DNA of 48,996 bases, from positions 1-48,996 of IMG/VR virus record IMGVR_UViG_3300021957_000063. One strand, given 5' to 3'. This DNA comes from a virus. Within the stretch, counting starts at the first letter, position 1. Each line of letters begins with the position of its first letter. The translations under genes and the position numbers were made by a program. The notes beneath the pieces are model-generated. The model made no database searches. It saw only the letters and a program-made list of their open reading frames with translations, and had not been told where the DNA came from. Below are positions 326 to 45,124 of this stretch, piece after piece.

Positions 326-844
326 TTAATGCACATCCTTGAATTGGTCTTTCTTGTGACACTTGTATCCATGCTCACCAAGAAATTCAATGGTCGTTAC
401 CAACTCTTGGTGATTCACTGGTTTACGAAGCAATAGGAATCTACCGTTGCCAAGTTTCTCGGCTATTTCTTCAAATGGTGTATCGGAGTAGGCAGTGATA
501 AAACATATCTCAATGTTGGGATCCAATTCAATAAGTTTTTGTGCTGTTTCAAATCCGTTGATGCCAGGTGGCATTCGCATGTCTAGAACAGCAACCAAAT
601 ATGGATCATCAATCTTGAGTGCTTTCTCTGCAAACTCAATTGCTTCTTCACCTTGATGAGCAGTATCAATTGTTAATTTTAAACTCGGTTTTTTTACTGC
701 TTGCTTTTCTACATTTTCAAATAGAACAGAAGCAAGACCACGAAGTTCTTTGATGCCAACATCTTCAACTCGAGCGAGAACATCAAGATATGCTTCAATC
801 ACGGTTGGCTCATCATCAACCATCAGAATCTTGTAATTTCTCAT
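326..844 (-). CDS. Stand-alone receiver-domain response regulator
   Basis: The 172-aa product is a single REC domain. It has the acidic pair D10/D11 after the first strand (ILMVDDEP), phospho-acceptor D88 in VLDMRMPPG, T117 in FITAYSD and K141 in LLRKPV. The PPG-x-NG-x-E and AYSD signatures are typical of receivers paired with sensor kinases. About 30 extra residues (31-60) lie between helix 1 and strand 2. No output domain is present, so it probably works by protein contact, by competing for host kinase phosphate or by binding another regulator. ATG at 844 is chosen because AAGG precedes it; the longer frame to 916 would run through the neighbouring promoter. It is the only minus-strand gene of the left region. 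An AATAAATA box at 878-871 may be its promoter. Confidence 0.85.
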   Translation of the reverse strand: MRNYKILMVDDEPTVIEAYLDVLARVEDVGIKELRGLASVLFENVEKQAVKKPSLKLTIDTAHQGEEAIEFAEKALKIDDPYLVAVLDMRMPPGINGFETAQKLIELDPNIEICFITAYSDTPFEEIAEKLGNGRFLLLRKPVNHQELVTTIEFLGEHGYKCHKKDQFKDVH

Positions 845-880
845 GTTTACCTTTTTTTTTAATTTATTTGTATTTATTTC

Positions 881-908
881 TTGACATTCCTGATCCATCT
901 GATATGAT
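881..908 (+). promoter_or_regulatory. Early promoter of the TTGACA-16-TATGAT family
   Basis: TTGACA at 881-886, 16-bp spacer, TATGAT at 903-908, then CTGATCATG. Two GATC sites lie 1 bp apart over the -10 box and the start site. It drives the gene at 955. Confidence 0.9.
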
Positions 909-954
909 CTGATCATGGTGAGTGATTGATGACTAACTCGAAACGAGAAACACT

Positions 955-3839: not shown

Positions 3840-4277
3840 ATGACAATTGATAGTTTTCGTGGTGAACATGATTATCTTTCGAATTTTTATTCCTGTCCTG
3901 TTGAATATGATGGTTTGACTTATCAGAATACCGAAGCAGCCTTTCAAGCTGCAAAATGTGTAGATCGAAACGAGAGAGAAAAATTTGTTAGCCTATCTCC
4001 TGGTCAAGCAAAGAAATTGGGAAGAAAGGTGGACTTGAGAGAAGATTGGGAAACTGTGAAGATTGATGTAATGAGAGATGTTCTCAAGAGTAAATTTTCA
4101 CTGAATTCTGAATTGAGAGAAAAGTTGATTGCCACTGGTGATGTTGAATTGATTGAAGGCAATCATTGGAATGACCGATTCTGGGGAGTTTGCCGAGGTA
4201 AAGGACAAAATCATCTTGGAAAATTATTGATGGAATTGAGAGAAATTCTGAAGGATAAAATTGAAAAAAGTTCTTGA
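3840..4277 (+). CDS. NADAR-family N-glycosidase (YbiA-like)
   Basis: The 145-aa protein matches the NADAR/YbiA fold along its length: FRGEHDYLSNFY at 6-17, a YQNTEAAFQAAK helix at 29-40, and the C-terminal W-ND-x-FWGVCRGKGQNHLGKLLM block at about 110-132. Family members cleave N-glycosidic bonds; some break down riboflavin precursors, and others remove ADP-ribose from guanine and so reverse DarT-like toxins. In a phage the second role would be anti-defence, which is inference. Length is normal for the family. The start has an AAGGACT binding site. The TGA stop lies inside the -35 box of the next promoter. Confidence 0.88.
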   Translation: MTIDSFRGEHDYLSNFYSCPVEYDGLTYQNTEAAFQAAKCVDRNEREKFVSLSPGQAKKLGRKVDLREDWETVKIDVMRDVLKSKFSLNSELREKLIATGDVELIEGNHWNDRFWGVCRGKGQNHLGKLLMELREILKDKIEKSS

Positions 4278-5275: not shown

Positions 5276-5303
5276 TTGACATTCCCGCCAGTTCTGATAT
5301 GAT
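5276..5303 (+). promoter_or_regulatory. Early promoter of the TTGACA-16-TATGAT family
   Basis: TTGACA 5276-5281, 16 bp, TATGAT 5298-5303, then CTGATCATTGAGTGAGTGAT. The leader start is shared with the promoter at 13301. Confidence 0.9.
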
Positions 5304-6135: not shown

Positions 6136-6177
6136 ACCTCTCGACTATTTCTTCAGACCTTACTGCACTATAAGACA

Positions 6178-6450
6178 ATGGACTCTTTCACCGAAGAATA
6201 CTTTGTTGGCACCTGCATTTGCAAAAAAGATTTGATTGTCCTCAAACGTTTGAGTAAATTCGAATCGTGGTGGAAAAAAGTGTGGGTGCTTGTTCTGGTT
6301 TTTATCTATTTACCTTTATTCATAATTATACCATTCTTAGGTATAATCATTTTAGGTATTGCGATCTTATCAACAGAACAAATCATTCAATGCCAATCCT
6401 GCAAGAACACCGACTTAACTATTCAAAATATTGTTGAGAGATACATATGA
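6178..6450 (+). CDS. Membrane protein with Cys knuckles around a hydrophobic hairpin
   Basis: A 90-aa protein with CIC at 13-15, then a basic-aromatic stretch, a continuous hydrophobic run of about 30 residues (36-66) broken by PLF and PFLG, then CQSC at about 72-75. Cysteine knuckles flanking a membrane-dipping segment recall the LITAF domain, although the first knuckle is CxC and not CxxC. It could equally be a two-pass membrane protein with a small zinc site. The binding site is poor. It overlaps the next gene by ATGA, so the two products are likely made together and may interact in the membrane. Confidence 0.65.
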   Translation: MDSFTEEYFVGTCICKKDLIVLKRLSKFESWWKKVWVLVLVFIYLPLFIIIPFLGIIILGIAILSTEQIIQCQSCKNTDLTIQNIVERYI

Positions 6451-9400
6451 AATTTTTATTATTGATTTTAATTTCAGCTATCATAGCAGCAAGTTCTTTT
6501 GCACAAAGTTCAGCCAAAATTCTTCCGATTGACTTGAAGAATTTTAAGTCAGACGGTAATTTAAGTTGTGCGCCTTCAAGAAAAGTTAACGAAAAATATG
6601 AGAGTTACACTTGTTTTAACAGAGGACGTGTTGTATACATTGGAGGATTAAACATTGAACAGAAATATTTTTCACCTGCATCTCACATTAGAAAATTAGG
6701 AGACAAAATTGATGCAGGTGAAATAGAAACATATAAAGATTTTTTTGAAAAACAACCACTATTTCAAATTCAAAATATAAATTGGGTAAAAATTCCTTTT
6801 AAAAGAATTGACGAAAAAGGAGGTATTAGTTTTAGTGTTAGTGATCGAGAAGTTTTCGGTTGTATATATTCACCGAAATTTGAAGGTTATGGAAAAATTT
6901 ATTGTGTAAATTACAAAAACAAAAATGTTTACACTGCTCATCGTCATAATGGATTACCAGGATTTTCAAATCGCTGGGGATATGAAATTGAAGAAGCATA
7001 TGTAAACTTAAAACAAAAGTCAACACATAATAGACTTGATTTAGGAATGTTTTCGAATACAGATGGTGGAGCCCTTGTATTATCAGAAACTCCAAAGTCT
7101 TACATTATAAGATATGTTAACGTTCCAAATAGTCAAACCAAGTTCAAAAGCGGTGATCTCAAAATATATGAATTTGATAGAAATGATAAAAATTATCATC
7201 TTGTTAGTAATCTTGCCTTAGGTCGTATAGTTACTACTCATGCTAGTCTTGTAAGATATTATAATATTTTTCATAAAAACATTGACAGTGAACTAGCATA
7301 TGCAAGAAGTGTATCGGTTCGAAAATATGAACGTCCTCAGTTTGAACATGAATTTGCAGAATTAAAAAAAGAAGTTGAACAAAAAGAAGAAAGAATAACC
7401 AAACAAAACGAAAGAAAAAACTTGATAGCCAAACAAAAGGCAAAAGAAGTAGAAAGAATTGCAAAGGCAAAACGTGAAAAGATTGCCAAACAAAAGGCGG
7501 AACGTGAACGAATAGCCAGACAAAAGGCGGAACGTGAACGAAAAGTAGCAGAAGAAAAGGCAGAACGTGAAAGAATTGCAAAAGCAAAAGAAAAACAACA
7601 AGAACTGTATGTTCTTTATACTAAATTAGTTAACCTAAAGATTGAAAATATACTTAAAGGAAAAGATATAATGTATATCTTTCCTCCTGTAAAAAGAATT
7701 GTAGATGAAATATATCAAGAATCCAACATTCAGAACACAAATCATCGAAATGAAATCTTCAACATTGCAACTCTAAGACTTGCTGAAGTTAGAATCGAAA
7801 GATCCGAATTGCGAAAAGCCGAATTAGACAGAGCATATCAAGAAACTCTCCGTACCGTAGAAGAAAACAAGGCCCGAAAGGAAGCCGAGAGAATTGCAAA
7901 GACTGAGAGAAAAATTGATGAGCCTGTCTCTGAAATTGTACAAGTAGAAAAACCTGCTGAAGAAGAGAAAAAACCGCTTGACACTTCTCAGCCGACTGCT
8001 ATGATCAAAGAAGTTGAAAAATTAAATGGCGATTTCTATCTTGAACCAAAATCATCAGAGAAGAAAATGAATGCCTTCAAGAAAACTCTGTTAGTTCTCG
8101 GAACTGTAGCAGGTCTATCAGGAAATGCAGAAGCACACCATTACCGCTGTGAGAAGTCAACTTTTCCAGGTGCCGTAAACGCCGAGAGTTATACTTGCCG
8201 AAACGATGTAGGCGACCTTGTCTATACTGGACAGCTTGATTCGAAGAACCTAAAGTTTGACGGATTTGGTGTCTCAATGACAGAGAATTTTGCCTACATG
8301 GGAATGTGGAAAGATGGCAAGATGAATGGTCATTTCATTCGTTTTGATATTAAATCTTTCGAAAATGACACTAGATGTTGTTCTAATACTTATTATTACA
8401 ATTATGCCTTTGTAGCAAAAAATGATGCTTTAGAAACCGGATTACGAGTTCCTACACTTGAGTCCAAAGGTCTTAGAGATTATGCATACGGTATGATTGA
8501 TACAGTATTGAATCAACAAGGTACCGCAGATGTTTATAAACATAATACAATCTATAACAACACAATCAAGCCAGATGTTGTAATTTCAAAACAGGCACTA
8601 GATGAAAAATCAAAGCCAATACCAGTTGCTAAAGTTTCGAAATCAACATCAAAAGAACTAGCACCTAAAATTGGAAATTTCGTTCTTTCTGGTTATGCTT
8701 TTATTATATTCTTTTTTATACCGATTGCATTCATTCTGCATTTCCTAATTGCACTTCGAACTCGCAAAGAAAAAGAAGCAGCATGGCAAACCGCCTTCAA
8801 TCTATATCATAAGAATGCTGCTCGGCGTGCCGAAGAAGCTAGACGTCGACAAGAAGAGGAAGAGGCTCGCAGACAAGCTGAAGAGGCTCGCCGACAAGAA
8901 GAGGAAGAGGCTCGCCGAGAAGGAGAAGAAACCAGACGAATTCTTGAAGAGGAATTTCGTAAAGCAGAAGAAGCCAGGCGTCGAGCAGAGGAAGCCAAGC
9001 GTCGAGCATATGAAGCTAGACGCCGACAAGAAGAAGCCAGACGCCGTGCTGAAGAAGAAGAAACCAAACGCCGTGGTGCTGAAGAAGAAACCAGACGCCG
9101 ACAAGACGAAGCCAGACGCCGTGCTGAAGAAGCCCGACAAGAAACTCGACGTCGAGCAGAAGAAGCCAGACGCCGTGCTGAAGACAACCAGAGCGGTGCC
9201 AGCGGTAGTTCTTCATCAAGTGGTACCTTTTCTACTGGCAAAGTAACATTGACAAAAAAGCAGAAAATGAAACTTATACAAGTTTTGCATCCTGATAAGT
9301 TTCAACACAACAAATTATACTCAGAAGATGTATACGAGAAAGTTGTGAATCCTATTCTCCTTAGTGTTCAAAAAAGTGAATTATCTGTTACTCAATTGAC

Positions 9401-9497
9401 AGCAATCAAAGTTTATCTTGCTGCTGCTGGGTGGACAAAACAAACAGCAAGTGACATTTTCACTGATGACGCCGCCCCTCTTGCGGCCGCTTTTTAA
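6447..9497 (+). CDS. Fused secreted/membrane protein: duplicated Cys domain, MORN, coiled coils, HPDK domain
   Basis: The product is 1016 aa. Residues 1-20 are a signal peptide ending FAQ. Residues 25-290 are a secreted region including a Cys-containing ESYTC-x6-VYIG segment. Residues 303-385 are a KQKAERER coiled coil. At M541 (position 8067) a second signal-peptide-like stretch follows (KKTLLVLGTVAGLSGNAEA), preceded by AGAGAAG, so an internal start could make a separate 476-aa protein. Then comes a second copy of the Cys segment (ESYTC-x6-LVYTG) with a MORN-like YMGMWKDGKMNGHF. Residues about 747-770 are membrane-spanning, 789-915 an extreme Glu/Arg/Ala coiled coil, and 930-1011 a C-terminal domain with HPDK at 948-951, the J-domain hallmark. 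The duplicated domain suggests fusion of two paralogues. Its end codes a terminator. Function unknown. Confidence 0.8.
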   Translation: MKFLLLILISAIIAASSFAQSSAKILPIDLKNFKSDGNLSCAPSRKVNEKYESYTCFNRGRVVYIGGLNIEQKYFSPASHIRKLGDKIDAGEIETYKDFFEKQPLFQIQNINWVKIPFKRIDEKGGISFSVSDREVFGCIYSPKFEGYGKIYCVNYKNKNVYTAHRHNGLPGFSNRWGYEIEEAYVNLKQKSTHNRLDLGMFSNTDGGALVLSETPKSYIIRYVNVPNSQTKFKSGDLKIYEFDRNDKNYHLVSNLALGRIVTTHASLVRYYNIFHKNIDSELAYARSVSVRKYERPQFEHEFAELKKEVEQKEERITKQNERKNLIAKQKAKEVERIAKAKREKIAKQKAERERIARQKAERERKVAEEKAERERIAKAKEKQQELYVLYTKLVNLKIENILKGKDIMYIFPPVKRIVDEIYQESNIQNTNHRNEIFNIATLRLAEVRIERSELRKAELDRAYQETLRTVEENKARKEAERIAKTERKIDEPVSEIVQVEKPAEEEKKPLDTSQPTAMIKEVEKLNGDFYLEPKSSEKKMNAFKKTLLVLGTVAGLSGNAEAHHYRCEKSTFPGAVNAESYTCRNDVGDLVYTGQLDSKNLKFDGFGVSMTENFAYMGMWKDGKMNGHFIRFDIKSFENDTRCCSNTYYYNYAFVAKNDALETGLRVPTLESKGLRDYAYGMIDTVLNQQGTADVYKHNTIYNNTIKPDVVISKQALDEKSKPIPVAKVSKSTSKELAPKIGNFVLSGYAFIIFFFIPIAFILHFLIALRTRKEKEAAWQTAFNLYHKNAARRAEEARRRQEEEEARRQAEEARRQEEEEARREGEETRRILEEEFRKAEEARRRAEEAKRRAYEARRRQEEARRRAEEEETKRRGAEEETRRRQDEARRRAEEARQETRRRAEEARRRAEDNQSGASGSSSSSGTFSTGKVTLTKKQKMKLIQVLHPDKFQHNKLYSEDVYEKVVNPILLSVQKSELSVTQLTAIKVYLAAAGWTKQTASDIFTDDAAPLAAAF
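9471..9495 (+). terminator. Terminator encoded in the last codons of the gene
   Basis: GCCGC (9471-9475), 7-nt loop, GCGGC (9483-9487), then CGCTTTTT. The hairpin is part of the final codons (Ala-Ala-Pro-Leu-Ala-Ala-Ala-Phe) of the 1016-aa protein. Confidence 0.65.
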
Positions 9498-9516
9498 AAA
9501 AAGTCGAAAAAATCAC

Positions 9517-9544
9517 TTGACATATTAGATTCATCTGATATGAT
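9517..9544 (+). promoter_or_regulatory. Early promoter of the TTGACA-16-TATGAT family
   Basis: TTGACA 9517-9522, 16 bp, TATGAT 9539-9544, CTGATCATG with paired GATC sites. It drives the coiled-coil gene at 9608. Confidence 0.9.
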
Positions 9545-9607
9545 CTGATCATGTTGATTGAGATGTTTCAGTCAACATTACTTTTCCTCTAACAAAAAAG
9601 GATCATT

Positions 9608-10093
9608 ATGTTTCCTGTTGCAAACTCCTTCAAAAGACTTGTAACTGAAGGTTCTTCATTCAATCCAGTTTCTGAAATTGTTCATGCTCGAGTCAGAAGC
9701 AATCTTGAAGATTGGCATAATAGTTGGAAAAAATTGCCTGGTATCACACCAGATCCTTTGGAAGTGGCAAAGGCAAAAACCAACGATATGGAAACAAAAG
9801 CACTTCGAGCCATGAAAGCTTATCGTGCTGAAAAGAAGAATGTGAAAAAGGCGGAAGCTACAGCAACAAAAATGGTACAACGCCTTGCTGCAGATCATCA
9901 ACGTGAAATCGAAAAATTGCAAAAGCAAATTGAAGAAAAGGATGCGGCAGTCAAAGAAGCAGAAGCAAAAGTTGTTGCTGCAAACAAAGAGACTGACGAC
10001 CTTCAAATTGCTTTCACCGAAGCAATGAATCTTTCAAAAATGATGGCTCGTTTGACAAAGACCTCAACATATCAATCAGCCTCAGCAGAATAA
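9608..10093 (+). CDS. Coiled-coil protein, 161 aa
   Basis: The start is preceded by AAAGGATC. The product has a globular-looking first 45 residues, then a long Lys/Glu/Ala coiled coil from about residue 55 to 140 (MKAYRAEKKNVKKAEATATK, then EIEKLQKQIEEKD). There is no signal peptide or membrane segment, so it is cytoplasmic. A strong terminator follows. No family recognised. It sits between two MORN-containing membrane or surface proteins, which may mean a shared structure, but nothing in the sequence proves it. Confidence 0.75.
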   Translation: MFPVANSFKRLVTEGSSFNPVSEIVHARVRSNLEDWHNSWKKLPGITPDPLEVAKAKTNDMETKALRAMKAYRAEKKNVKKAEATATKMVQRLAADHQREIEKLQKQIEEKDAAVKEAEAKVVAANKETDDLQIAFTEAMNLSKMMARLTKTSTYQSASAE

Positions 10094-10100
10094 TCAATTC

Positions 10101-10122
10101 GCCACGCCTAGCGTGGCTTTTT
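10101..10122 (+). terminator. Intrinsic terminator, copy of the one at 2054
   Basis: GCCACGC, loop CTA, GCGTGGC (10101-10117), then TTTTT. It is identical in stem and loop to 2054-2070, 8 kb away. Confidence 0.92.
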
Positions 10123-10147
10123 ATAATGCACTCAGTGAGAATGTAAA

Positions 10148-10924
10148 ATGTCACATTTAGCATCATACACAGGAAACGGAGCAACCGCAGTCTCTTATGG
10201 TAATGTAAGTGCTGTTGGTTTTTTGCGATGGACTGGTGATGAAGATTATGACGGAAAGCAAGGATATGGTAAAGCCTACTGGGGTTATCCTGATGAAGAC
10301 CGTTTAGAGTTTGACGGTGAATACAGAGATGATGAAAAGTACTATGGAAAATTTACCCAGTTATCTGATAAAACTTCTTGGGAAGGTTACTATGCAGACG
10401 GTGAACCTGATGGGGAAGGAACTTTAACAACATACCGCAACGGGAAAAAAGTTGTAATTACTGGTGTTGCGAGTGACATGGATGGCCGCAACTGGTGGGA
10501 ATTTACCGGAACGGGAATTGAAACATACGAAGATGGTACAATGTTTGAAGGTGAATTTGTTGATGGTGAATGGACTGAAGGGACATTGACTTGTACAAAC
10601 GGTGAAGTCTACACTGGTACATGGGAAGAAAAACAGCTCGAAGGTGAGGGACTTTGGCTGAGTGAATCAGGAATTTCATATTCTGGTAATTTTCGACAAA
10701 GCATTCCTGATGGAAAAGGTGTTCTCAATTTCCCAAGCGGCTCAACATTTGTTGGTGAATACAGAAAAGGTGTTGTTCACGGTCAGGGAGTTTGGGAAGG
10801 TTCTGATGGAACTTCTTATCAGGGTGAATATGCAAATGGCAAAGCCCACGGTCATGGTATTCGAATAAACGAAAGCGGTGACAAGCAAGTTGGTCAGTTT
10901 AAAGAAGGTCATTTTATTGCTTGA
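10148..10924 (+). CDS. MORN-repeat protein, 258 aa
   Basis: The protein is almost entirely MORN repeats, about nine units of the form YxGxWxxGxxxGxG. Clear ones include EFDGEYRDD, SWEGYYADGEPDGEG, FEGEFVDGEWTEG, YTGTWEEKQLEGEG, YSGNFRQSIPDGKG, FVGEYRKGVVHGQG and YQGEYANGKAHGHG. MORN arrays form extended beta-hairpin rods that bind membranes or other proteins. There is no signal peptide, so it is probably cytoplasmic or membrane-peripheral. The TGA stop lies within the TTGACA of the next promoter. It probably partners with the MORN-containing 1016-aa protein of the same region, an inference from shared repeats and proximity. Confidence 0.88.
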   Translation: MSHLASYTGNGATAVSYGNVSAVGFLRWTGDEDYDGKQGYGKAYWGYPDEDRLEFDGEYRDDEKYYGKFTQLSDKTSWEGYYADGEPDGEGTLTTYRNGKKVVITGVASDMDGRNWWEFTGTGIETYEDGTMFEGEFVDGEWTEGTLTCTNGEVYTGTWEEKQLEGEGLWLSESGISYSGNFRQSIPDGKGVLNFPSGSTFVGEYRKGVVHGQGVWEGSDGTSYQGEYANGKAHGHGIRINESGDKQVGQFKEGHFIA

Positions 10925-10948
10925 CACTTGTGTTGAGTATGCTACGAT
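10921..10948 (+). promoter_or_regulatory. Diverged early promoter overlapping a stop codon
   Basis: TTGACA (10921-10926), 16 bp, TACGAT (10943-10948), then CTAATTTTG. It keeps the spacing but has only one GATC. The MORN gene's TGA lies in the -35 box. Confidence 0.75.
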
Positions 10949-10989
10949 CTAATTTTGTTTGATTATCTAATCCACATTATGAGGTTATT

Positions 10990-11742
10990 ATGAGTAATTC
11001 AGCAACACTAAAATCAGTTGATAAACTTTTGTTTGTAACCGCACGAAAACTTGAAGGAGATGGTATGGGAAATCAAGTTACTGATTTTGTCAACTCACAA
11101 GACCTTTCTACTGATCCAAAGGTTCTTCTCGAAACTTTAAAGCAAAAGGCTCGACACGAACTTGAACAAACAAAAAAAGCAATTCCCGGATACTTGATGT
11201 TTGATGAAGAGATCAATACACCTCGCCAAGAAGTTCGCAATAGCGATACTCTACCACCAACTACCAACACTCCTGCAGAGGAACCAATGTCAAGAGACAC
11301 CTGCGGTTTCGAAACCTTAACAGAAACTCCTCAAATCGAAACTTCTTCACAAGAAGAAACTCTTCAGATTGAAGATTCAAGTACACCAACATCACAGGGT
11401 CCTTCCCGTGCAATCAGTCAGGGAACCGAATTCCGTGAATATCTTTCCTCTTTACTTGCAAAGCATGACACCGCAGACATCGCACCATTCAAGTGTGGTG
11501 AGCGTGACAACCTTGCATGGCAGCCCAAGAAGCCACACTATTTTAGTGATGGTACTCACATTCGTGGAACACGTGTCGAAGCTACTCAGATGACGCCTGA
11601 GCAAATTGAAGCCTACAATGATGGCTATGCCTACTCCGAATTAGTTCAGCAACTGGTAGTACCTTTGGTGGACGCCAGTGCTTCGACAGAAGCCGTTGAC
11701 ATCCTTGGTGAAGGCGCACAAAATGTGATGGCCGCAGCTTAA
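10990..11742 (+). CDS. Unknown protein with disordered middle, 250 aa
   Basis: The start has GAGGT 6 nt upstream. Residues 1-75 look globular and helical. Residues about 76-148 are rich in Thr, Pro, Ser and Glu (DTLPPTTNTPAEEP, EETLQIEDSSTPTSQG) and probably disordered. Residues 150-250 form a second domain with a conserved-looking SDGTHIRGTRVEATQMTPEQ stretch and an Ala-rich end. No family recognised. The two-domain-plus-linker layout suggests an adaptor or a virion-associated protein. Confidence 0.8.
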   Translation: MSNSATLKSVDKLLFVTARKLEGDGMGNQVTDFVNSQDLSTDPKVLLETLKQKARHELEQTKKAIPGYLMFDEEINTPRQEVRNSDTLPPTTNTPAEEPMSRDTCGFETLTETPQIETSSQEETLQIEDSSTPTSQGPSRAISQGTEFREYLSSLLAKHDTADIAPFKCGERDNLAWQPKKPHYFSDGTHIRGTRVEATQMTPEQIEAYNDGYAYSELVQQLVVPLVDASASTEAVDILGEGAQNVMAAA

Positions 11743-11751
11743 AAAAAACTC

Positions 11752-11779
11752 TTGACACTTTCGTTCAATCTGATATGAT
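11752..11779 (+). promoter_or_regulatory. Early promoter of the TTGACA-16-TATGAT family
   Basis: TTGACA 11752-11757, 16 bp, TATGAT 11774-11779, CTGATCATG. It follows an A-run after the stop of the previous gene. Confidence 0.9.
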
Positions 11780-11831
11780 CTGATCATGTTGAGCGAGACC
11801 GCTCTTTTTTTCACTCTAACAGAGAAACACT

Positions 11832-12185
11832 ATGCTTCGCTTCATCGCCGGTATCATTGTTTGGTTGCTTTTCAAAGATACACAAATGGGTCAAAACATT
11901 TCAGGTTCATTGACAAGCGGTTTTGCCGGTGGAGGTGTACCAGAAAGACGACCAGAGCGAAAAGATTCAAGAATGGATATGAATAATCCAAACAATTATG
12001 CTATTCAATACAAAACTGGTCATGAAAATCATCCTCATTGGATCTCTGCAGGTGGTGGTTACACGCCAGGACATGATGTGCAAAATCAAAGATTCTTGCA
12101 TGATGCTGCAAAGAGAAGTAAGTATGGACAGTCTCGAGCAATTCATCTACATACAAAACAAGTTGTAGAATACGGATTTGCTTGA
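11832..12185 (+). CDS. Membrane-anchored small protein, 117 aa
   Basis: A short N-terminal hydrophobic segment (LRFIAGIIVWLLF, residues 2-14) would anchor the protein or act as a signal. The rest is hydrophilic, glycine-rich then basic (GFAGGGVPERRPERKDSR), with a His-rich C-terminal part (HENHPHW, GHD, HLHTKQ) that could bind metal. The ATG follows AGAGAAAC and an early promoter. No family recognised. A terminator follows the stop. Confidence 0.7.
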   Translation: MLRFIAGIIVWLLFKDTQMGQNISGSLTSGFAGGGVPERRPERKDSRMDMNNPNNYAIQYKTGHENHPHWISAGGGYTPGHDVQNQRFLHDAAKRSKYGQSRAIHLHTKQVVEYGFA

Positions 12186-12195
12186 GATACACATC

Positions 12196-12228
12196 GTGTG
12201 CTTGAATCCTCAAGCACACAACTTTTTT
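12196..12228 (+). terminator. Intrinsic terminator
   Basis: Perfect 10-bp stem GTGTGCTTGA (12196-12205), loop ATCC, TCAAGCACAC (12210-12219), then AAC and six T. Confidence 0.9.
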
Positions 12229-12243
12229 CAAATGAGAAGACAC

Positions 12244-12729
12244 ATGACATTTGAATCTATCAAAAAACATTACGCAATCGAATCTTTTGTTCTTATCCCT
12301 TCTCTTACGATTGCAATTCTTGCTCTCTTCACAAACTTCTTTGAGACCGCTTTTCAGCAATTAGTTAATTTCAAAGATTTTGTTATTCGAACATCTCTTA
12401 CAGGCTGGACATCAACAACAAATCATTTCAGTAAGACATATGATCCTGAATGGAATTATGCTTACTGGGAACTTGGTGTTTGTGTTTTCATTTTTCTAGT
12501 CAGTGTTTATTTGTTTGTCGATGAATATGTAAAAGAAAAAAATGAAAGTATATTTGATGTAGATGTTTTTTTTATTTTATTCATGCTCATCTCAACATCT
12601 CTTCTTGTAGTAACAATTGTTGTTCCTGGTTTTTGGACTTGGCTGATTGTGGTGCTTGTAAAGATTGTTTTGTTTATCGTTACAATTATCGTTGTGTTGA
12701 CTCTTGGTGCATTTCTATCAGATAATTAA
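12244..12729 (+). CDS. Multi-pass membrane protein, 161 aa
   Basis: ATG at 12244 is chosen over 12232 because GAGAAG precedes only the former, and earlier starts would overlap the terminator. Four hydrophobic segments are visible at about residues 14-33, 76-94, 106-127 and 130-156, so it is an inner-membrane protein. No conserved motif is recognised. It follows a strong terminator without a clear promoter and is followed 11 bp later by another membrane-protein gene, so the pair may act together. Confidence 0.75.
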   Translation: MTFESIKKHYAIESFVLIPSLTIAILALFTNFFETAFQQLVNFKDFVIRTSLTGWTSTTNHFSKTYDPEWNYAYWELGVCVFIFLVSVYLFVDEYVKEKNESIFDVDVFFILFMLISTSLLVVTIVVPGFWTWLIVVLVKIVLFIVTIIVVLTLGAFLSDN

Positions 12730-12740
12730 GGAGAACTAAC

Positions 12741-13121
12741 ATGCCACTTTCTACTATGATATTTCTTTCTTGTGCAGGTGTTTCAATTTATGTCTATGGT
12801 TGTTATGCAATGGCACACAAGCCTGGTGTTTTCTTTCAACCAGATCCACGAATTGATTATACAAGTATTGTTGCAATAGAAATGAAACCAACGTTTGGTT
12901 TAGGTCATTATTTTATTTCAAGTGTAATCACAACTTTGTATGCAATGCCAATGTATTTAATTTTATTGTTTAGTATACCATTATTCTTTATTTCTGATAA
13001 TCATATAACTTTGCCCAATTTGATTATCATTTTGTTATCAATTGCCACCACCGCATTTTTTCTTTGTATGATGCATAATAGAATGCAAGAAGTTGCGGAA
13101 ATTAAAAATAATACTCTATAA
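12741..13121 (+). CDS. Membrane protein, 126 aa
   Basis: A strong AAGGAGAA site lies before the ATG. About three membrane segments (residues 5-24, 60-83, 90-111) enclose a polar loop of about 35 residues (28-58), and a short charged tail follows. No family recognised. It is co-transcribed with the preceding four-pass membrane protein gene. Such small membrane pairs in phage early regions are often exclusion or host-envelope modifiers, but nothing here proves that. Confidence 0.75.
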   Translation: MPLSTMIFLSCAGVSIYVYGCYAMAHKPGVFFQPDPRIDYTSIVAIEMKPTFGLGHYFISSVITTLYAMPMYLILLFSIPLFFISDNHITLPNLIIILLSIATTAFFLCMMHNRMQEVAEIKNNTL

Positions 13122-13133
13122 CCGAGGTTAATT

Positions 13134-13371: not shown

Positions 13372-13533
13372 ATGACCGCACGAAACAAGAAGTTCACAAT
13401 CTACGGCTACGCAAACGGACAACTGCTTGATGTGACAGAAGTCAAAGGAATCGTTGCCGCAAGAAACATCTCAGCATTCTGGGAAAGCACAGGGCAGTTT
13501 TCAAAAGTAACCTTTCAACCAAAAAATAAATAA
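13372..13533 (+). CDS. Small basic protein, 53 aa
   Basis: ATG at 13372 lies 44 bp after an early promoter, with GCGAGACTG in binding-site position. The product is a compact 53-aa basic protein (RNKKFTIYGYANGQLLDVTEVKG, with a basic tail FQPKNK), predicted as strands plus one helix. It is short, single-gene and sandwiched between two near-duplicate promoters, so it is a self-contained cassette of the kind that moves between phages. Function unknown. Confidence 0.72.
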   Translation: MTARNKKFTIYGYANGQLLDVTEVKGIVAARNISAFWESTGQFSKVTFQPKNK

Positions 13534-13541
13534 AAAATCCC

Positions 13542-13569
13542 TTGACATTTCCTGCCAGTCTGATAAGAT
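13542..13569 (+). promoter_or_regulatory. Early promoter, -10 variant TAAGAT
   Basis: TTGACA 13542-13547, 16 bp, TAAGAT 13564-13569, CTGATCATAGTGATTGAGACA. The leader is shared with the promoter at 4274. It heads a five-gene run to 15754. Confidence 0.88.
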
Positions 13570-13623
13570 CTGATCATAGTGATTGAGACACATCACGATT
13601 ATCAACTCCTTCGAGAGATTCAC

Positions 13624-13998
13624 ATGGCATTTGCTCCTACCTCAACTTACTTCAACACCGGTGATTCCTCAGTGATTGGTCGCTTCGATGAGAAAGACAA
13701 CGGTCATCTCTTTGAGTACTCCGAGAATCGTGAGACAGAAGGTTGGGGTGCCGAGCATAAAGCCGACCTCCCTCACAAAATCTGGGTTTCAACCCCGCAC
13801 TTCGCAGACAACGGTCACTGCCTTGACAGTGGCTTCCGCTACGGCAAAGTCCTGAAGACCGTAGCCTACGTTGCCGTAGACGAAGACGAATTTGGCAAGC
13901 CCGTTTTCGAAAAGTGGCAACTCAAGCAGAGAACCCACTTTGAATACAACCGCAGCCGTGTTGCTGAGTTCGAAGTTTCACCCTTCTCCCTTAACTAA
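13624..13998 (+). CDS. Unknown soluble protein, 124 aa
   Basis: ATG at 13624 is preceded by GAGAGATT; the upstream in-frame ATG lies in the leader hairpin and lacks a site. The product is acidic and aromatic-rich, probably mostly beta (for example FDEKDNGHLFEYSENRETEGW). Codon use is markedly GC-richer than the late genes, as expected of a highly expressed early protein or recent acquisition. No family recognised. It is the first gene of the run leading to the BMP protein. Confidence 0.75.
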   Translation: MAFAPTSTYFNTGDSSVIGRFDEKDNGHLFEYSENRETEGWGAEHKADLPHKIWVSTPHFADNGHCLDSGFRYGKVLKTVAYVAVDEDEFGKPVFEKWQLKQRTHFEYNRSRVAEFEVSPFSLN

Positions 13999-14009
13999 AA
14001 AGAGGTCTC

Positions 14010-14153
14010 ATGGTAGACGTTTCACAAGACATCTTAAACGCCTGGGTTGATTCAGCATACCCCGAACTCACTGAAGAAGATGAGGCGTTGATTGCTGAGT
14101 TTGAAGAACTTGAGGCTGACCGATTTGCATCACAACCAGAACTTGAGGTATAA
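14010..14153 (+). CDS. Small acidic protein, 47 aa
   Basis: ATG at 14010 with AGAGGTC just upstream. A very acidic 47-residue helix-rich peptide (ELTEEDEALIAEFEELEAD). The next gene's ATG follows its TAA without a gap, and its last codons (GAG GTA) provide that gene's binding site. The acidity could mimic DNA, a common trick of phage inhibitors, but this is only a possibility. Confidence 0.7.
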   Translation: MVDVSQDILNAWVDSAYPELTEEDEALIAEFEELEADRFASQPELEV

Positions 14154-14384
14154 ATGAGATTACTTACTTGGCAAGAGATGCAGGAATATCCTGTTCTTCA
14201 GAGAACTGAATTATCTTCAGGCAAAATTCTGTATCGCCCAAGAAGTGAAAAAGGCAAGAATATGATCTACAAAATTGATTCAATTCTTGCCGGTCTTTCT
14301 GAGCAACAAGCTACACGGAGAAAGTGTATCATTGTTGATATGGATGACATGATTATTTCGAACTCGTTCGAAACTACACACTAA
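14154..14384 (+). CDS. Unknown protein, 76 aa
   Basis: It starts directly after the previous stop and uses GAGG inside that gene as binding site. The 76-residue product is basic in the middle (YRPRSEKGKNMIYK, ATRRKC) and ends with an acidic-hydrophobic segment (IIVDMDDMIISN). There is no membrane segment and no family is recognised. Confidence 0.68.
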   Translation: MRLLTWQEMQEYPVLQRTELSSGKILYRPRSEKGKNMIYKIDSILAGLSEQQATRRKCIIVDMDDMIISNSFETTH

Positions 14385-14398
14385 ATAAGAGGTGAACT

Positions 14399-14689
14399 AT
14401 GGAAGCTTTCAATAATGCTCCACATGACGTTGTAAAACTAAGCAATGGTGAACTATACCTTGCTGTTCTTGATGAAGAATTTACAAACGTAAAAGCAGCA
14501 AAACGATGGTTTCTTTCCCACTTTGCAAAGGATGAATTAAACTCCTTTTCAAAGTTTCGTTCAGCACATGTAGGTGACCGTCTTGAAGAAAGCCACTACA
14601 TGAGCAAACATAACCATTCGGCGAATGGTTCTCTTGATGTAATGATTAAGGTGTCTGGTACGCCTTTTCTACTTGGATGTAATTATTAA
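14399..14689 (+). CDS. Unknown protein, 96 aa
   Basis: A strong AGAGGTG site precedes the ATG. The 96-residue product looks globular (VVKLSNGELYLAVLDEEFTNVKAAKRWF) with a His-containing loop (SHYMSKHNHSANG) and a hydrophobic end. No family recognised. It lies 12 bp before the BMP gene in the same run. Confidence 0.7.
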   Translation: MEAFNNAPHDVVKLSNGELYLAVLDEEFTNVKAAKRWFLSHFAKDELNSFSKFRSAHVGDRLEESHYMSKHNHSANGSLDVMIKVSGTPFLLGCNY

Positions 14690-14701
14690 TATGGAGCTAA
14701 A

Positions 14702-15754
14702 ATGAAAAAACTTTTGTTGACCTTCTCACTGATTCTTTCCCTTTTCGCCTTTTCAAACACCACATATGCTAAAGAAGTTAAAGCAGCCTTTGTTTATGTA
14801 GGTCCGGTTGGTGATGGTGGATGGACTTATGCTCATGACCTTGGAAGGCGTGAACTCGAAAAACTTGGCATTGAAACTACTTATGTTGAAAGTGTGCCTG
14901 AAACTGATTCTCAAAGAGTGCTAAGAAATCTTGCACGAAGAGGATACAATGTGATCTTCACAACAAGCTTTGGTTTCATGGATCCAACTCTTGAAGTTGC
15001 AAAGCAATTTCCTGATGTAATTTTCATGCATTGTAGCGGTTTCAAAACAGCAGACAATATGGGCAATTACTTTGCAAGAATGTATCAAGCAAAATATCTT
15101 GCTGGAATGGTTGCCGGTATGCAAACAAAGACCGATGAAATTGGAGTTATCGGTTCTCATCCAATTCCTGAGATTGTACGACACATCAATGCCTTCACTC
15201 TTGGCGCTCGTTCAGTAAATCCTGATGCAACAGTAAATGTTATCTGGGTAAACTCTTGGTTTGATCCTGCGAAAGAAGGTGCTGCAGCAAATACTTTGAT
15301 GGACAATGGTGCAGATGTTGTTCATATTACAACCGATTCTGCCGCAGCAACACAAGCAGCTAATAAAAGAGGCTTGTACGCCATTGGTAATGATTCAGAC
15401 ATGACACTCTATGGACCAAAAGCACATCTAACCGCACCAATCTTCAACTGGGGACGCTACTATGTTGAATTGGTAAGGCGAGTACAAGATGATAAGTGGA
15501 CTTCTGACAGTGAGTGGTGGGGAATGAATACAGGAATTGTTGACTTGTCAAAATTTGGCAAGATGGTAGATCCAAAAGTTCAAGAAATTGTAAATAAAAA
15601 GAAGCAAGAAATTGTGACTGGACGATATCAAGTATTTACCGGACCGATTTATGACAGAGATGGTAAACTTGTTGTTGAGAAAGGTGCTGTTCCTTCTGAT
15701 ACAGAACTTCTTACCATGAACTATTTCATTGATGGCGTTAAAGGAAATTTATAA
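14702..15754 (+). CDS. BMP/PnrA-family periplasmic substrate-binding protein
   Basis: The 350-aa product has a clean Sec signal peptide (about residues 1-23, cleavage after TYA) and no lipobox, so it is a soluble periplasmic protein. It then follows the basic-membrane-protein (PnrA/Med, type I ABC binding) pattern: VYVGPVGDGGWTYAHDLGRR near the start, VIFTTSFGF, FPDVIFMHCSGFKT, the hinge YLAGMVAGMQTKT, IGVIGSHPIPEIVRHINAFTLGA, and DVVHITTDSAAATQAA. Family members bind nucleosides or related small molecules and deliver them to an ABC permease. No permease or ATPase is encoded here, so it would serve a host transporter, like phage PstS. The length is normal for the family. It is the last gene of the run from the promoter at 13542. 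Confidence 0.9.
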   Translation: MKKLLLTFSLILSLFAFSNTTYAKEVKAAFVYVGPVGDGGWTYAHDLGRRELEKLGIETTYVESVPETDSQRVLRNLARRGYNVIFTTSFGFMDPTLEVAKQFPDVIFMHCSGFKTADNMGNYFARMYQAKYLAGMVAGMQTKTDEIGVIGSHPIPEIVRHINAFTLGARSVNPDATVNVIWVNSWFDPAKEGAAANTLMDNGADVVHITTDSAAATQAANKRGLYAIGNDSDMTLYGPKAHLTAPIFNWGRYYVELVRRVQDDKWTSDSEWWGMNTGIVDLSKFGKMVDPKVQEIVNKKKQEIVTGRYQVFTGPIYDRDGKLVVEKGAVPSDTELLTMNYFIDGVKGNL

Positions 15755-15763
15755 AAAAAGTAC

Positions 15764-15791
15764 TTGACTTTTTTGACCAGTGTGATATGAT
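15764..15791 (+). promoter_or_regulatory. Early promoter in front of a structured RNA
   Basis: TTGACT 15764-15769, 16 bp, TATGAT 15786-15791, CTGATCATG. Unlike the other family members it is followed by about 130 nt of base-paired, non-coding sequence. Confidence 0.88.
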
Positions 15792-15797
15792 CTGATC

Positions 15798-15925
15798 ATG
15801 CTGGTATCCGATAGAAAAGAGCCGTAAGTTCGTTGATACCAAACATCCTCGCACGACCAATTGCTGGTCGTTAGAAAATGCGGGACCAGCATGTGAGGTG
15901 ATGATGAGAACTTGCGGCTTTTTTC
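15798..15925 (+). ncRNA. Structured non-coding RNA or attenuator leader
   Basis: Starting about 7 nt after the -10 box, the 128-nt segment has no frame with a binding site but dense self-complementarity. AGCCGTAAGTTC (15820-15831) pairs with GAACTTGCGGCT (15908-15919, one G-U) and is followed by six T, forming a terminator. CATGCTGGT (15797-15805) pairs with ACCAGCATG (15885-15893). ACGACCA (15853-15859) pairs with TGGTCGT (15865-15871). TGGTATC (15802-15808) pairs with GATACCA (15835-15841). CATCCTC (15844-15850) pairs with GAGG-TG-ATG (15895-15903). The first two stems are interleaved, so they form a pseudoknot or exclude each other. With its own promoter and terminator it is either a stand-alone sRNA or a switch controlling the SGNH gene at 15967. 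It matches no RNA family I recognise. Confidence 0.7.
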
Positions 15926-15966
15926 ATTTTTATTCACCGTTCCTTTAAACCTCTTGTGAGAATATA

Positions 15967-16608
15967 ATGACAATCGAAACTATTTATTTGCTTGGAGATT
16001 CAATTTTCGATAACAGCAAGTATGTTGAAACTAAGTATGATGCCGTTTCTTCTTTACTTGCCAGTATAGTTGCTGACAAAGGAGTCAATGTTGCTCTTGA
16101 TGCTGTTGATGGATATGTCACGCATGATGTTGTTCGTCAATTGACAGAAGAACGATCACAACCTTATTCAAACAATGCTGCCGCTGTTCTGAGTGTTGGT
16201 GGTAATGATGCTCTGGGAGTTGCTGGAATCTTGATGGCGCCCGTTTCTAATGTTCACGAAGCATTGACATTGCTTCGATCAATAACTGAAGAATTTCGTG
16301 GTTTTTACACGAATGTTCTTGATACGGTGACCGCTTATTATAATGAATATAACATTCGTGTCTGTACGATTTATAATAAGATTCCAACTCACAAATCAGG
16401 ATATCTTCCGATTGAGGCGATGACCGCTTTAGCACTCTTTAATGATGTGATTACTGAAGAGGCTGCTAAAAGAGATTTGCCTGTGATTGACTTGAGGACG
16501 ATTTGTGATCAAGAATCTGATTACAGTGAAGTATCACCTATTGAACCATCACGGTCTGGTGGTAAGAAAATTGCCTATGCAATTGCGAAAAGTTTTGACT
16601 TGAACTAA
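15967..16608 (+). CDS. SGNH/GDSL hydrolase-like protein
   Basis: The 213-aa product has block I GDSIFDN with nucleophile S12, a block II glycine at G49 (DGYVT), and block III VGGND with N80. Block V, normally D-x-x-H, reads SPIEPSRSGGKKIA: S190 and E193 stand where Asp and His are expected. The IEPS-x-x-GG-x-x-IA frame is otherwise intact, so this is either a subfamily with altered catalysis or an inactive version. Family members are esterases or acetyl-hydrolases acting on sugars or lipids. There is no signal peptide. It follows the structured RNA and may be controlled by it. Its TAA overlaps by two bases the TAG of the convergent tape-measure gene, leaving no room for a terminator. Confidence 0.82.
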   Translation: MTIETIYLLGDSIFDNSKYVETKYDAVSSLLASIVADKGVNVALDAVDGYVTHDVVRQLTEERSQPYSNNAAAVLSVGGNDALGVAGILMAPVSNVHEALTLLRSITEEFRGFYTNVLDTVTAYYNEYNIRVCTIYNKIPTHKSGYLPIEAMTALALFNDVITEEAAKRDLPVIDLRTICDQESDYSEVSPIEPSRSGGKKIAYAIAKSFDLN

Positions 16609-43434: not shown

Positions 43435-43948
43435 GGCCTGCTTTTTTCGGAAGTGTGGCTTCTACATCAAGTTCAAGTAGAGCAAAACCACCACCTTTTG
43501 ATTTGATTGTGCCACCTGCATGTTGTTCACTGTTCGTTCCCGGATCACCTTCTTGTCCCTCATTTTCTTCACCCGAAAGTTCAGGATCAAACTCACCAAC
43601 AAATTGGCGACCTTTTTTCATACCTTCAGTAGCGGCAGCAAGAGCCTTATGTTTCTCTTGTGAATATGGTATTTGAATTGCCTTAGGTTTTGCATCACCT
43701 TCAAGCATTACCCACATGAAAATATTATCACCTGTTTCATCTGGTATATAAGAAACAAGCATGAACTTCTTTTCATTTGTTAATGAAGTTGGATACCCAA
43801 ACAATGAATCAATGTAGAAGTAACTTCCACCAGTGAACAAAATTGTTAGAGGAATGATGTACAGCATGTGGGCACTTTTACGCACATCAATCATCAGCCA
43901 CAAAAATAATGAAACTAAAAATATCGCTAAAATAATTAAGTAAGTCAT
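43415..43948 (-). CDS. Two-pass membrane protein of the motor-like cassette, 177 aa
   Basis: Two membrane segments (about residues 3-20 and 29-52) are followed by a 120-residue soluble tail that is acidic and Gly-rich near its end (GEENEGQEGDPG). Its start overlaps the ExbD-like stop by ATGA, and the GGAGGACC binding site is formed by the preceding Gly-Gly-Pro codons. Its end overlaps gp16 by 20 nt. No family recognised. Tight coupling makes it a probable third subunit or regulator of the ExbB/ExbD-like pair. Confidence 0.7.
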   Translation of the reverse strand: MTYLIILAIFLVSLFLWLMIDVRKSAHMLYIIPLTILFTGGSYFYIDSLFGYPTSLTNEKKFMLVSYIPDETGDNIFMWVMLEGDAKPKAIQIPYSQEKHKALAAATEGMKKGRQFVGEFDPELSGEENEGQEGDPGTNSEQHAGGTIKSKGGGFALLELDVEATLPKKAGHEEYED

Positions 43949-44679
43949 GGTCCTCCTATGCCTCCATAAACTGGATCACTATTAATTTGCATTTGTTGCG
44001 TAACGGCACCGGATGGTCCAGAGCCTCTTGTATTACGATTTGAATCATTTGGTAAAGTTACCCAACCTGTGCCAGGTCCAGTACCATCAGGTTTCATTAC
44101 AAGATGCTTTTGCAAATCATGCATGTTTGTATAACGTCCTTCAGGTGTCATGTCAAAGCGAACAAAGGTAAGTTCTTGTCCACGAAATTCAAACTCTTTT
44201 GTTCCTTGCCAAACTTCTTCAAAAGGATTCAACTTAATCACTTTAACTTCGGCAACTGTCCGCCTCTTTTCTTTTGGTTCCTTTGTAAAGAAATAATGTC
44301 CATTGATTACATATTCACCAGCTTGGTAACCACGAATGTTGATAATCTCTTGATTGATATGAACAACTTCCATCTTATCCGTGCCCGCATAAATTGTATC
44401 CGTACGATGTCCTAAATCATCTCGGTCAAGGTTCATGAATCCTTGTGAGGGATCCCGAAAACCTACAAGACCACTTGGGCCTTCAATCCATAGGTCTAAA
44501 TCAATATCTTTTTCTCCTTCCCAACTCATTGTGATCATGTATTCAACGTTTGCTTCAATGTCTGCTGTTTCCGTTGGATCATTAATTAGAAGAAATGCAA
44601 CGATGAAAAGGAATGCAAATCCCAAAATTAAGTTGAAAAGAAGATCAATAAATGCAAGATTACTACTGTACTTTAACAT
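43945..44679 (-). CDS. ExbD/TolR-like protein with YfaP-like periplasmic domain
   Basis: The N-terminus (SNLAFIDLLFNLILGFAFLF) has the ExbD/TolR/MotB pattern: a single membrane helix with an early Asp (D12), the proton-carrying residue of that family. The outside part (about 42-135) reads ITMSWEGEKDIDLDLWIEGPSG and later YQAGEYVINGHYFF, resembling the DUF2135/YfaP beta-sandwich; the usual TolR or OmpA-like peptidoglycan-binding domain is not seen. A C-terminal Gly/Asn-rich tail follows. It overlaps the ExbB-like gene by 17 nt and the third membrane gene by 4 nt. The helix assignment is fairly strong and the outer-domain assignment moderate. Confidence 0.72.
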   Translation of the reverse strand: MLKYSSNLAFIDLLFNLILGFAFLFIVAFLLINDPTETADIEANVEYMITMSWEGEKDIDLDLWIEGPSGLVGFRDPSQGFMNLDRDDLGHRTDTIYAGTDKMEVVHINQEIINIRGYQAGEYVINGHYFFTKEPKEKRRTVAEVKVIKLNPFEEVWQGTKEFEFRGQELTFVRFDMTPEGRYTNMHDLQKHLVMKPDGTGPGTGWVTLPNDSNRNTRGSGPSGAVTQQMQINSDPVYGGIGGP

Positions 44680-45124
44680 ATGATTCCACCATTACCAGTT
44701 GACTTTTAATAAGAACACTACTTACTAACCCAACCAATGTTGTAAGCAATGCTGTACCCATACCGCTTGCCATTTGTGTTAAACTTTCCTGAATGGCATA
44801 AGTATCGTTGATATTTAAATTTGAAAAAACTGAGTACAGCATGTAAATAAATCCGATAACAGTTCCAATCATGCCTAAAGTAATTACCATTTCACTCACA
44901 AACCATTCCCGATCATAAGTATATTTTTCGTCTCCTTTAACTGAACTTTTCCATAATTTATATCCAATCACAACACTGGTGGCGGCGAATATACTTAGAA
45001 TTGCAACAGAGAGTTTTGTAAAGTCATGCACATACATGAAATTCAAAAAGTTAAAATAGGTTGCAACACCTAAACCTGTGAGTGTGAGTGTGATGAGTAG
45101 CCACCATTTCAAAAATAAATTCAT
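44663..45124 (-). CDS. MotA/TolQ/ExbB-like proton-channel protein
   Basis: The 153-aa protein has four hydrophobic segments (about 9-29, 39-57, 77-100, 118-140). The last two carry the family signature: ITLGMIGTVIGFIYML with T88, and SGMGTALLTTLVGLVSS with T128/T129, matching GLLGTV-x-G and AL-x-TT-x-GL of TolQ/ExbB. The cytoplasmic loop between them is shorter than in host ExbB, so it is a minimal stator. In the ExbB/ExbD, TolQ/TolR and MotA/MotB pairs this subunit forms a pentamer around two ExbD helices and turns ion flow into movement. A GGAGAATT site precedes the ATG. It lies 12 nt after gp15 and overlaps the ExbD-like gene. Confidence 0.8.
   Translation of the reverse strand: MNLFLKWWLLITLTLTGLGVATYFNFLNFMYVHDFTKLSVAILSIFAATSVVIGYKLWKSSVKGDEKYTYDREWFVSEMVITLGMIGTVIGFIYMLYSVFSNLNINDTYAIQESLTQMASGMGTALLTTLVGLVSSVLIKSQLVMVESYVKVQ

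Follow-up and report, generated by a model that had tools for sequence, protein, structure and literature searches.

A long open reading frame of an uncultured T4-like phage that probably joins two genes and carries the expression signals of the second at its middle

The 48,996-base stretch of DNA analysed here (an IMG/VR record, referred to below as the window) is that of an uncultured, distant T4-like myovirus, with PHROG family matches to a terminase, a sheath stabiliser, a tail tube, a baseplate hub and a DNA end protector; related fragments in IMG/VR share 70-100% identity across the tail genes. On its plus strand lies an ORF with one signal peptide at its start and another in its middle, and the question is whether it represents one gene or two, and one protein or two. 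Our reading, to which we give a probability of about 0.6, is that two adjacent genes, here called A and B, were joined, that the expression signals of B now lie inside the ORF of A, and that two products are made. The parts of the ORF and the gene before it are as follows.

6178-6450, plus strand: 90-aa membrane ORF, with a 4-nt overlap (ATGA) with the start at 6447
6447-9497, plus strand: long ORF of 1016 aa, half A being residues 1-540 and half B residues 541-1016 (translation, coding score)
6447-6509, plus strand: signal peptide 1, residues 1-21 (sequence, rule-based scan)
6567-6641, plus strand: Cys41..ESYTC56-VYxG hairpin of half A (BLASTP, Smith-Waterman)
7344-7631, plus strand: charged helix of half A, residues 300-395, rich in K, E and R
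8067-8135, plus strand: second start codon M541 and signal peptide 2, residues 541-563, cleavage AEA/HH (rule-based scan)
8136-8351, plus strand: Cys/ESYTC and MORN-like region of half B, residues 564-635 (Pfam MORN E 0.22, under the cut-off; beta strands in a low-confidence model)
8679-8759, plus strand: transmembrane helix, residues 745-771, followed by RTRKEKE
8760-9182, plus strand: Arg/Glu helix, residues 772-912 (single-alpha-helix or Ala-core coiled coil)
9219-9494, plus strand: C-terminal helical domain, with HPDK (residues 948-951) at 9288-9299 (AF2 pLDDT 66)

Translation of the 1016 codons met no stop and the frame-0 coding score was positive in every 90-nt window, so that the ORF of the preliminary description is borne out. 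GC3 was 0.16 in the first 900 nt versus 0.27 in half B, a difference as expected for parts with different origins. Both signal peptides that had been proposed were also recovered, MKFLLLILISAIIAASSFA-QS from M1 and MNAFKKTLLVLGTVAGLSGNAEA-HH from M541; each is of the Sec type, with a charged n-region, a hydrophobic core and an AxA-type end. In a simple rule-based scan over ATGs followed by at least 45 open codons, only 9 of the 423 such ATGs in the window passed, several of the nine being real gene starts, and the proposed signal peptide at M541 appears to be a true one.

All eight cysteines (41, 56, 139, 153, 568, 584, 644 and 645) fall within presumed periplasmic parts, and the charged helices and C-terminal domain have none. 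The membrane helix and the extreme Arg/Glu helix noticed earlier are both present: there is only one strong transmembrane helix (about 745-771), and the 141 residues of 772-912 include 41 R, 41 E and 6 K. Since RTRKEKE comes directly after the transmembrane helix, the Arg/Glu helix and the C-terminal domain are placed in the cytoplasm. Signal peptide 2 has a core that appears too short to span the membrane, and the topology predicted for B alone could therefore hold for the fused protein as well. In TolA (TIGR02794), too, a membrane anchor adjoins a long, charged helix rich in Ala, but that helix is periplasmic whereas the one described here is predicted to be cytoplasmic. The match to TolA (34.4 bits, equivalog cut-off 59.45) covered the low-complexity helix only and was rejected, as was a match to ABC2_membrane_3, which was also below its cut-off and was judged to reflect transmembrane or low-complexity sequence.

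It had been suggested that the two halves carry the same domain and are paralogues. The ESYTC...VYxG motif does occur in both, but the similarity extends over only about 25 alignable residues rather than a domain length (BLASTP E 0.007 as a single comparison; Smith-Waterman shuffle p 0.038), and neither a shared domain nor paralogy follows from it. Half B can be aligned to the MORN protein encoded at 10148 about as well (p 0.015) as to half A, so the motif is more plausibly a MORN-like hairpin than evidence of a duplication. In half B, VYTGQ...YMGMWKDGKMNG resembles a repeat of the MORN proteins (PF02493), of which the protein at 10148 is a true example; PF02493 itself gave 11.9 bits on half B against a cut-off of 22.5. 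The model of the half B ectodomain was too poor for use (pLDDT 37).

The main new feature is a promoter. Many plus-strand genes of the window are preceded by a repeated, near-identical element, CTTGACA-N16-TATGATCTGATCAT, which is a sigma-70-type promoter with an extended -10. In it TTGACA-N16-TATGAT overlaps a 13-bp palindrome, ATGATCTGATCAT, with two GATC sites, and this promoter-palindrome element, found before most plus-strand genes and, among related IMG/VR contigs, in 33 stretches, resembles a single operator common to the early genes or a methylation-sensitive control over them. The copies and the signals at the junction are given below.

84, 881, 1314, 3334, 4274, 5276, 9517, 11752, 13301, 13542 and 15764, plus strand: the 11 copies of the repeated promoter
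5276-5303, plus strand: nearest copy upstream of the long ORF, which likely drives its full-length transcription
7978-8005, plus strand: internal predicted promoter, with -35 TTGACA at 7978-7983, TG at 7997-7998, -10 TATGAT at 8000-8005 and an A6 tract before it
8057-8063, plus strand: AGAGAAG ribosome-binding site for M541, 3 nt before the ATG (duplex -2.9 kcal/mol)
9517-9544, plus strand: next promoter downstream, which serves the gene at 9608

The twelfth copy, which the preliminary description did not contain, lies inside the long ORF, 89 bp (from -35 to ATG) before M541, and retains TTGACA, the 16-bp spacer and TGnTATGAT. Under a scoring matrix built from the 11 other copies it reached 17.3 bits, a value not attained in 200 random windows (9.8 Mb), and the next best untrained site of the window had 5.4 bits (at 10921, 69 bp before the start at 10990). 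None of 2000 synonymous shuffles of the gene reached its score (mean maximum -12 bits, highest 17.2). Among the relatives, the -35 sits 55-102 bp upstream of a gene in nearly all cases measured, and 0 of 42 exact and 0 of 60 scored promoter copies were intragenic, that is, inside a long ORF; the CTGCTATGATC variant of the internal promoter was found also in the relative L061. A chance origin of the internal promoter is unlikely. That both the promoter-like site and the signal-like segment are chance features of an ordinary long protein is an explanation we hold to be highly improbable: the case is a single ORFan and the two features were chosen post hoc, but the shuffles speak against it, and so does the fact that promoter, ribosome-binding site, ATG and signal peptide stand in the correct order and at the correct distance. 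The internal promoter, its position and its low likelihood by chance together suggest that residues 541-1016 represent a gene in its own right or derive from one, and they strengthen the earlier proposals that two secreted proteins were fused and that two proteins may come from one gene.

Initiation at M541 would use a same-frame internal start with predicted signals of its own, namely the promoter at 7978-8005, AGAGAAG and the ATG at 8067. The AGAGAAG noted before M541 is indeed there; it is weak and closely spaced, and its duplex energy is matched by 20 of the 48 other ATGs in the ORF, while it equals that of the real starts at 6447 and 11832 and is close to those at 955 and 1407. Nested genes read in one frame occur in other phages, as in lambda C/Nu3, T7 4A/4B and lambda S107/S105, where the shorter product shares the C-terminal part and begins at an internal start, as is proposed here. 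In those pairs, however, the short form arises by internal initiation of translation and carries no additional signal for export, whereas here a promoter and a signal peptide would be added.

The sequence between promoter and M541 bears on whether the junction is real. This linker of 29 codons contains no stop and has a frame-0 score of 0.39 bits per codon, versus a coding mean of 0.46; such a score is reached by 0.5% of stop-free intergenic-like sequences, and the leaders of other genes have a negative coding score in all frames. Being coding-like, unlike those leaders, the linker favours a real and not very recent fusion over an assembly error. It is quite unlikely, in our judgement, that A and B are still separate in the living phage and that the contig has a single-base error or a strain-level mutation removing the stop of A, since the linker does not resemble a true leader. 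Compatible with such an error are the A6 run just upstream of the promoter and the stops of the other two frames within it (TGA 7979 and TGA 8002), so that one indel would separate A and B, as well as the way in which the MORN gene (10148-10924) ends, its TGA lying within the TTGACA of the degenerate promoter that follows. The same A6 run and TGAs would also make the joining of two genes easy. Programmed frameshifting at the A6 run was considered and rejected, as frame 0 is already open and the phase of the heptamer is wrong.

The state of the promoter can also be read in another way. Most other copies carry the right half of the palindrome, and the internal copy is without it, so that this promoter may be decayed. 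Only the 1016-aa protein would then be made, the promoter and signal peptide 2 being decayed relics of an old gene boundary, and the loss of the operator half after the -10, the weak ribosome-binding site and the normal coding bias of the linker all agree with this. We nevertheless regard it as rather unlikely, because the functional parts (TTGACA, TGnTATGAT, ATG, h-region and AxA) are intact and it is the spacer and the downstream half that show drift. The copy at 10921, 69 bp before 10990, illustrates that degenerate yet positioned copies occur.

On the preferred reading, that of two joined genes with two products, two neighbouring early genes of a T4-like phage would have lost the stop codon between them. 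A would be an exported coiled-coil protein, and B a protein with a signal peptide, a Cys/MORN-like ectodomain, a transmembrane helix, the Arg/Glu helix and a small C-terminal domain, whose promoter, ribosome-binding site, start codon and signal peptide would now lie in frame within the long ORF. Transcription from 5276 would give full-length A-B (1016 aa) and that from 7978 would give B alone (476 aa), so that the gene probably yields both proteins, as judged from the signals in the DNA. Fusion by stop loss has a precedent in the literature on T4-like phages: in phage RB16, one stop-codon substitution joins rki to ORF058w, and western blotting revealed the resulting Rki-ORF58 protein (PMC3486835). 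As described there, Rki16 (this fusion) and KP15 gp055 likewise represent adjacent T4-like genes joined in frame by stop loss. They differ from the present case in that Rki is a cytoplasmic protein whose J domain is genuine and N-terminal, whereas the halves of our ORF have signal peptides and its C-terminal HPDK is not recognised as a J domain, and in that the second gene keeps a promoter here, whereas none is described for ORF058w in the portion of that source drawn on.

T4-like phages do encode J-domain proteins (PMC3486835), and the preliminary description had read the HPDK motif as part of a J-like domain and the whole as a possible scaffold recruiting host DnaK. HPDK is present at residues 948-951, after a basic helix, and Smith-Waterman alignment to the auxilin J domain gave p 0.0015. 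These points agree with a reading of B as a J-domain protein at the membrane, bringing in host DnaK in the way that the cytoplasmic Rki does in phage RB43, but this we find very doubtful. The domain is without helix I, and the similarity to auxilin, as to all three J domains compared, was gone once the HPDK letters were masked. A PF00226 search of the window came back empty at E<=10 (control genomes were positive), hmmscan likewise found no J domain, and phmmer against the PDB returned no match for the C-terminal domain. The AF2 model of this domain was of moderate confidence (pLDDT 66, pTM 0.54), and among its fold matches (Foldseek, VIA-align) there was no J-domain chain. Neither the J-like domain nor the DnaK scaffold gains support from these results, although a remote J domain keeps a small probability.

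Split versions in relatives had been named as a check. No split or fused relative of the protein or its parts was found in INPHARED phages (tblastn), plasmids, IMG/VR scans or GTDB genomes, nor in 48 whole IMG/VR records from this group of phages, and searches with the neighbouring island genes at 10148 and 9608 also found no relatives; direct proof of separate ancestors is thus not available from them, and the fusion reading is based on one contig and on prediction. The DNA of 6140-13123 had no match in about 65 loci of the same phage group, in which both of its flanks are conserved, and this puts the long ORF in a 7-kb private island. Phage G002 is 99.8% identical over 13522-16600, and there the two island flanks are about 0.5 kb apart. 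The island is part of a mosaic, promoter-bounded accessory region.

Several other genes of this phage group were recorded. G002 carries a NADAR gene within the ~0.5 kb corresponding to the island, and in the same accessory region it has a different long coiled-coil protein of 350 aa with a C-terminal membrane helix (L028, 133-1185, minus strand). In the window, a NADAR-domain protein is encoded at 3840-4277 (plus strand; PF08719, E 1e-29), which PADLOC candidate PDC-M42C also matches; for the question of the long ORF, PADLOC gave no useful match. A response-regulator receiver-like protein (ILMVDDEPTVIEAYLDV...LDMRMPPGINGFETAQ; 326-916, minus strand) is kept in the relative L023. The signal-peptide protein at 14702-15754 (plus strand) belongs to the BMP (basic membrane protein) substrate-binding family (NF047927, E 3e-21, under the curated cut-off), which is unusual for a phage. 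A single repetitive protein of 6706 aa (22780-42900, minus strand) with short NNLTATNVYLTTGTI-like repeats takes up 41% of the contig and is probably a giant tail fibre. Beside it the phage encodes a proton-channel-like pair (43945-45124): a ZorA/MotA/TolQ-like membrane protein among the tail genes (44663-45124, minus strand; NCBIfam ZorA, E 4e-7) and, adjoining it, a protein that starts with a TolR/ExbD-like helix (FIDLLFNLILGF; 43945-44679, minus strand) and has relatives in Rhizobium phages.

As to function, the Cys-containing parts of both proposed forms would be periplasmic and the Arg/Glu helix and C-terminal domain cytoplasmic, B serving as an early inner-membrane adaptor that extends into the cytoplasm, with A tethered to it one-to-one in the fused state. 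More tentatively, through the internal promoter and signal peptide one gene might supply two forms, a fusion with two ectodomains and a free membrane protein, which have the cytoplasmic helix and C-terminal domain in common; their ratio and timing could be set by the two promoters, of which the upstream one alone has the palindromic operator-like sequence. The likely role would be that of an early envelope protein, for example in excluding other phages or in the takeover of membrane functions. If our reading is true, this is a clear fusion in a phage accessory region in which the whole cassette of the second gene (promoter, ribosome-binding site, start and signal peptide) was kept inside the first, and two membrane or periplasmic proteins would come from one ORF. 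Since gene callers list only the long ORF, nested exported proteins of this kind would be overlooked. The case would show a route by which the promoter-bounded gene cassettes of T4-like phages can merge.
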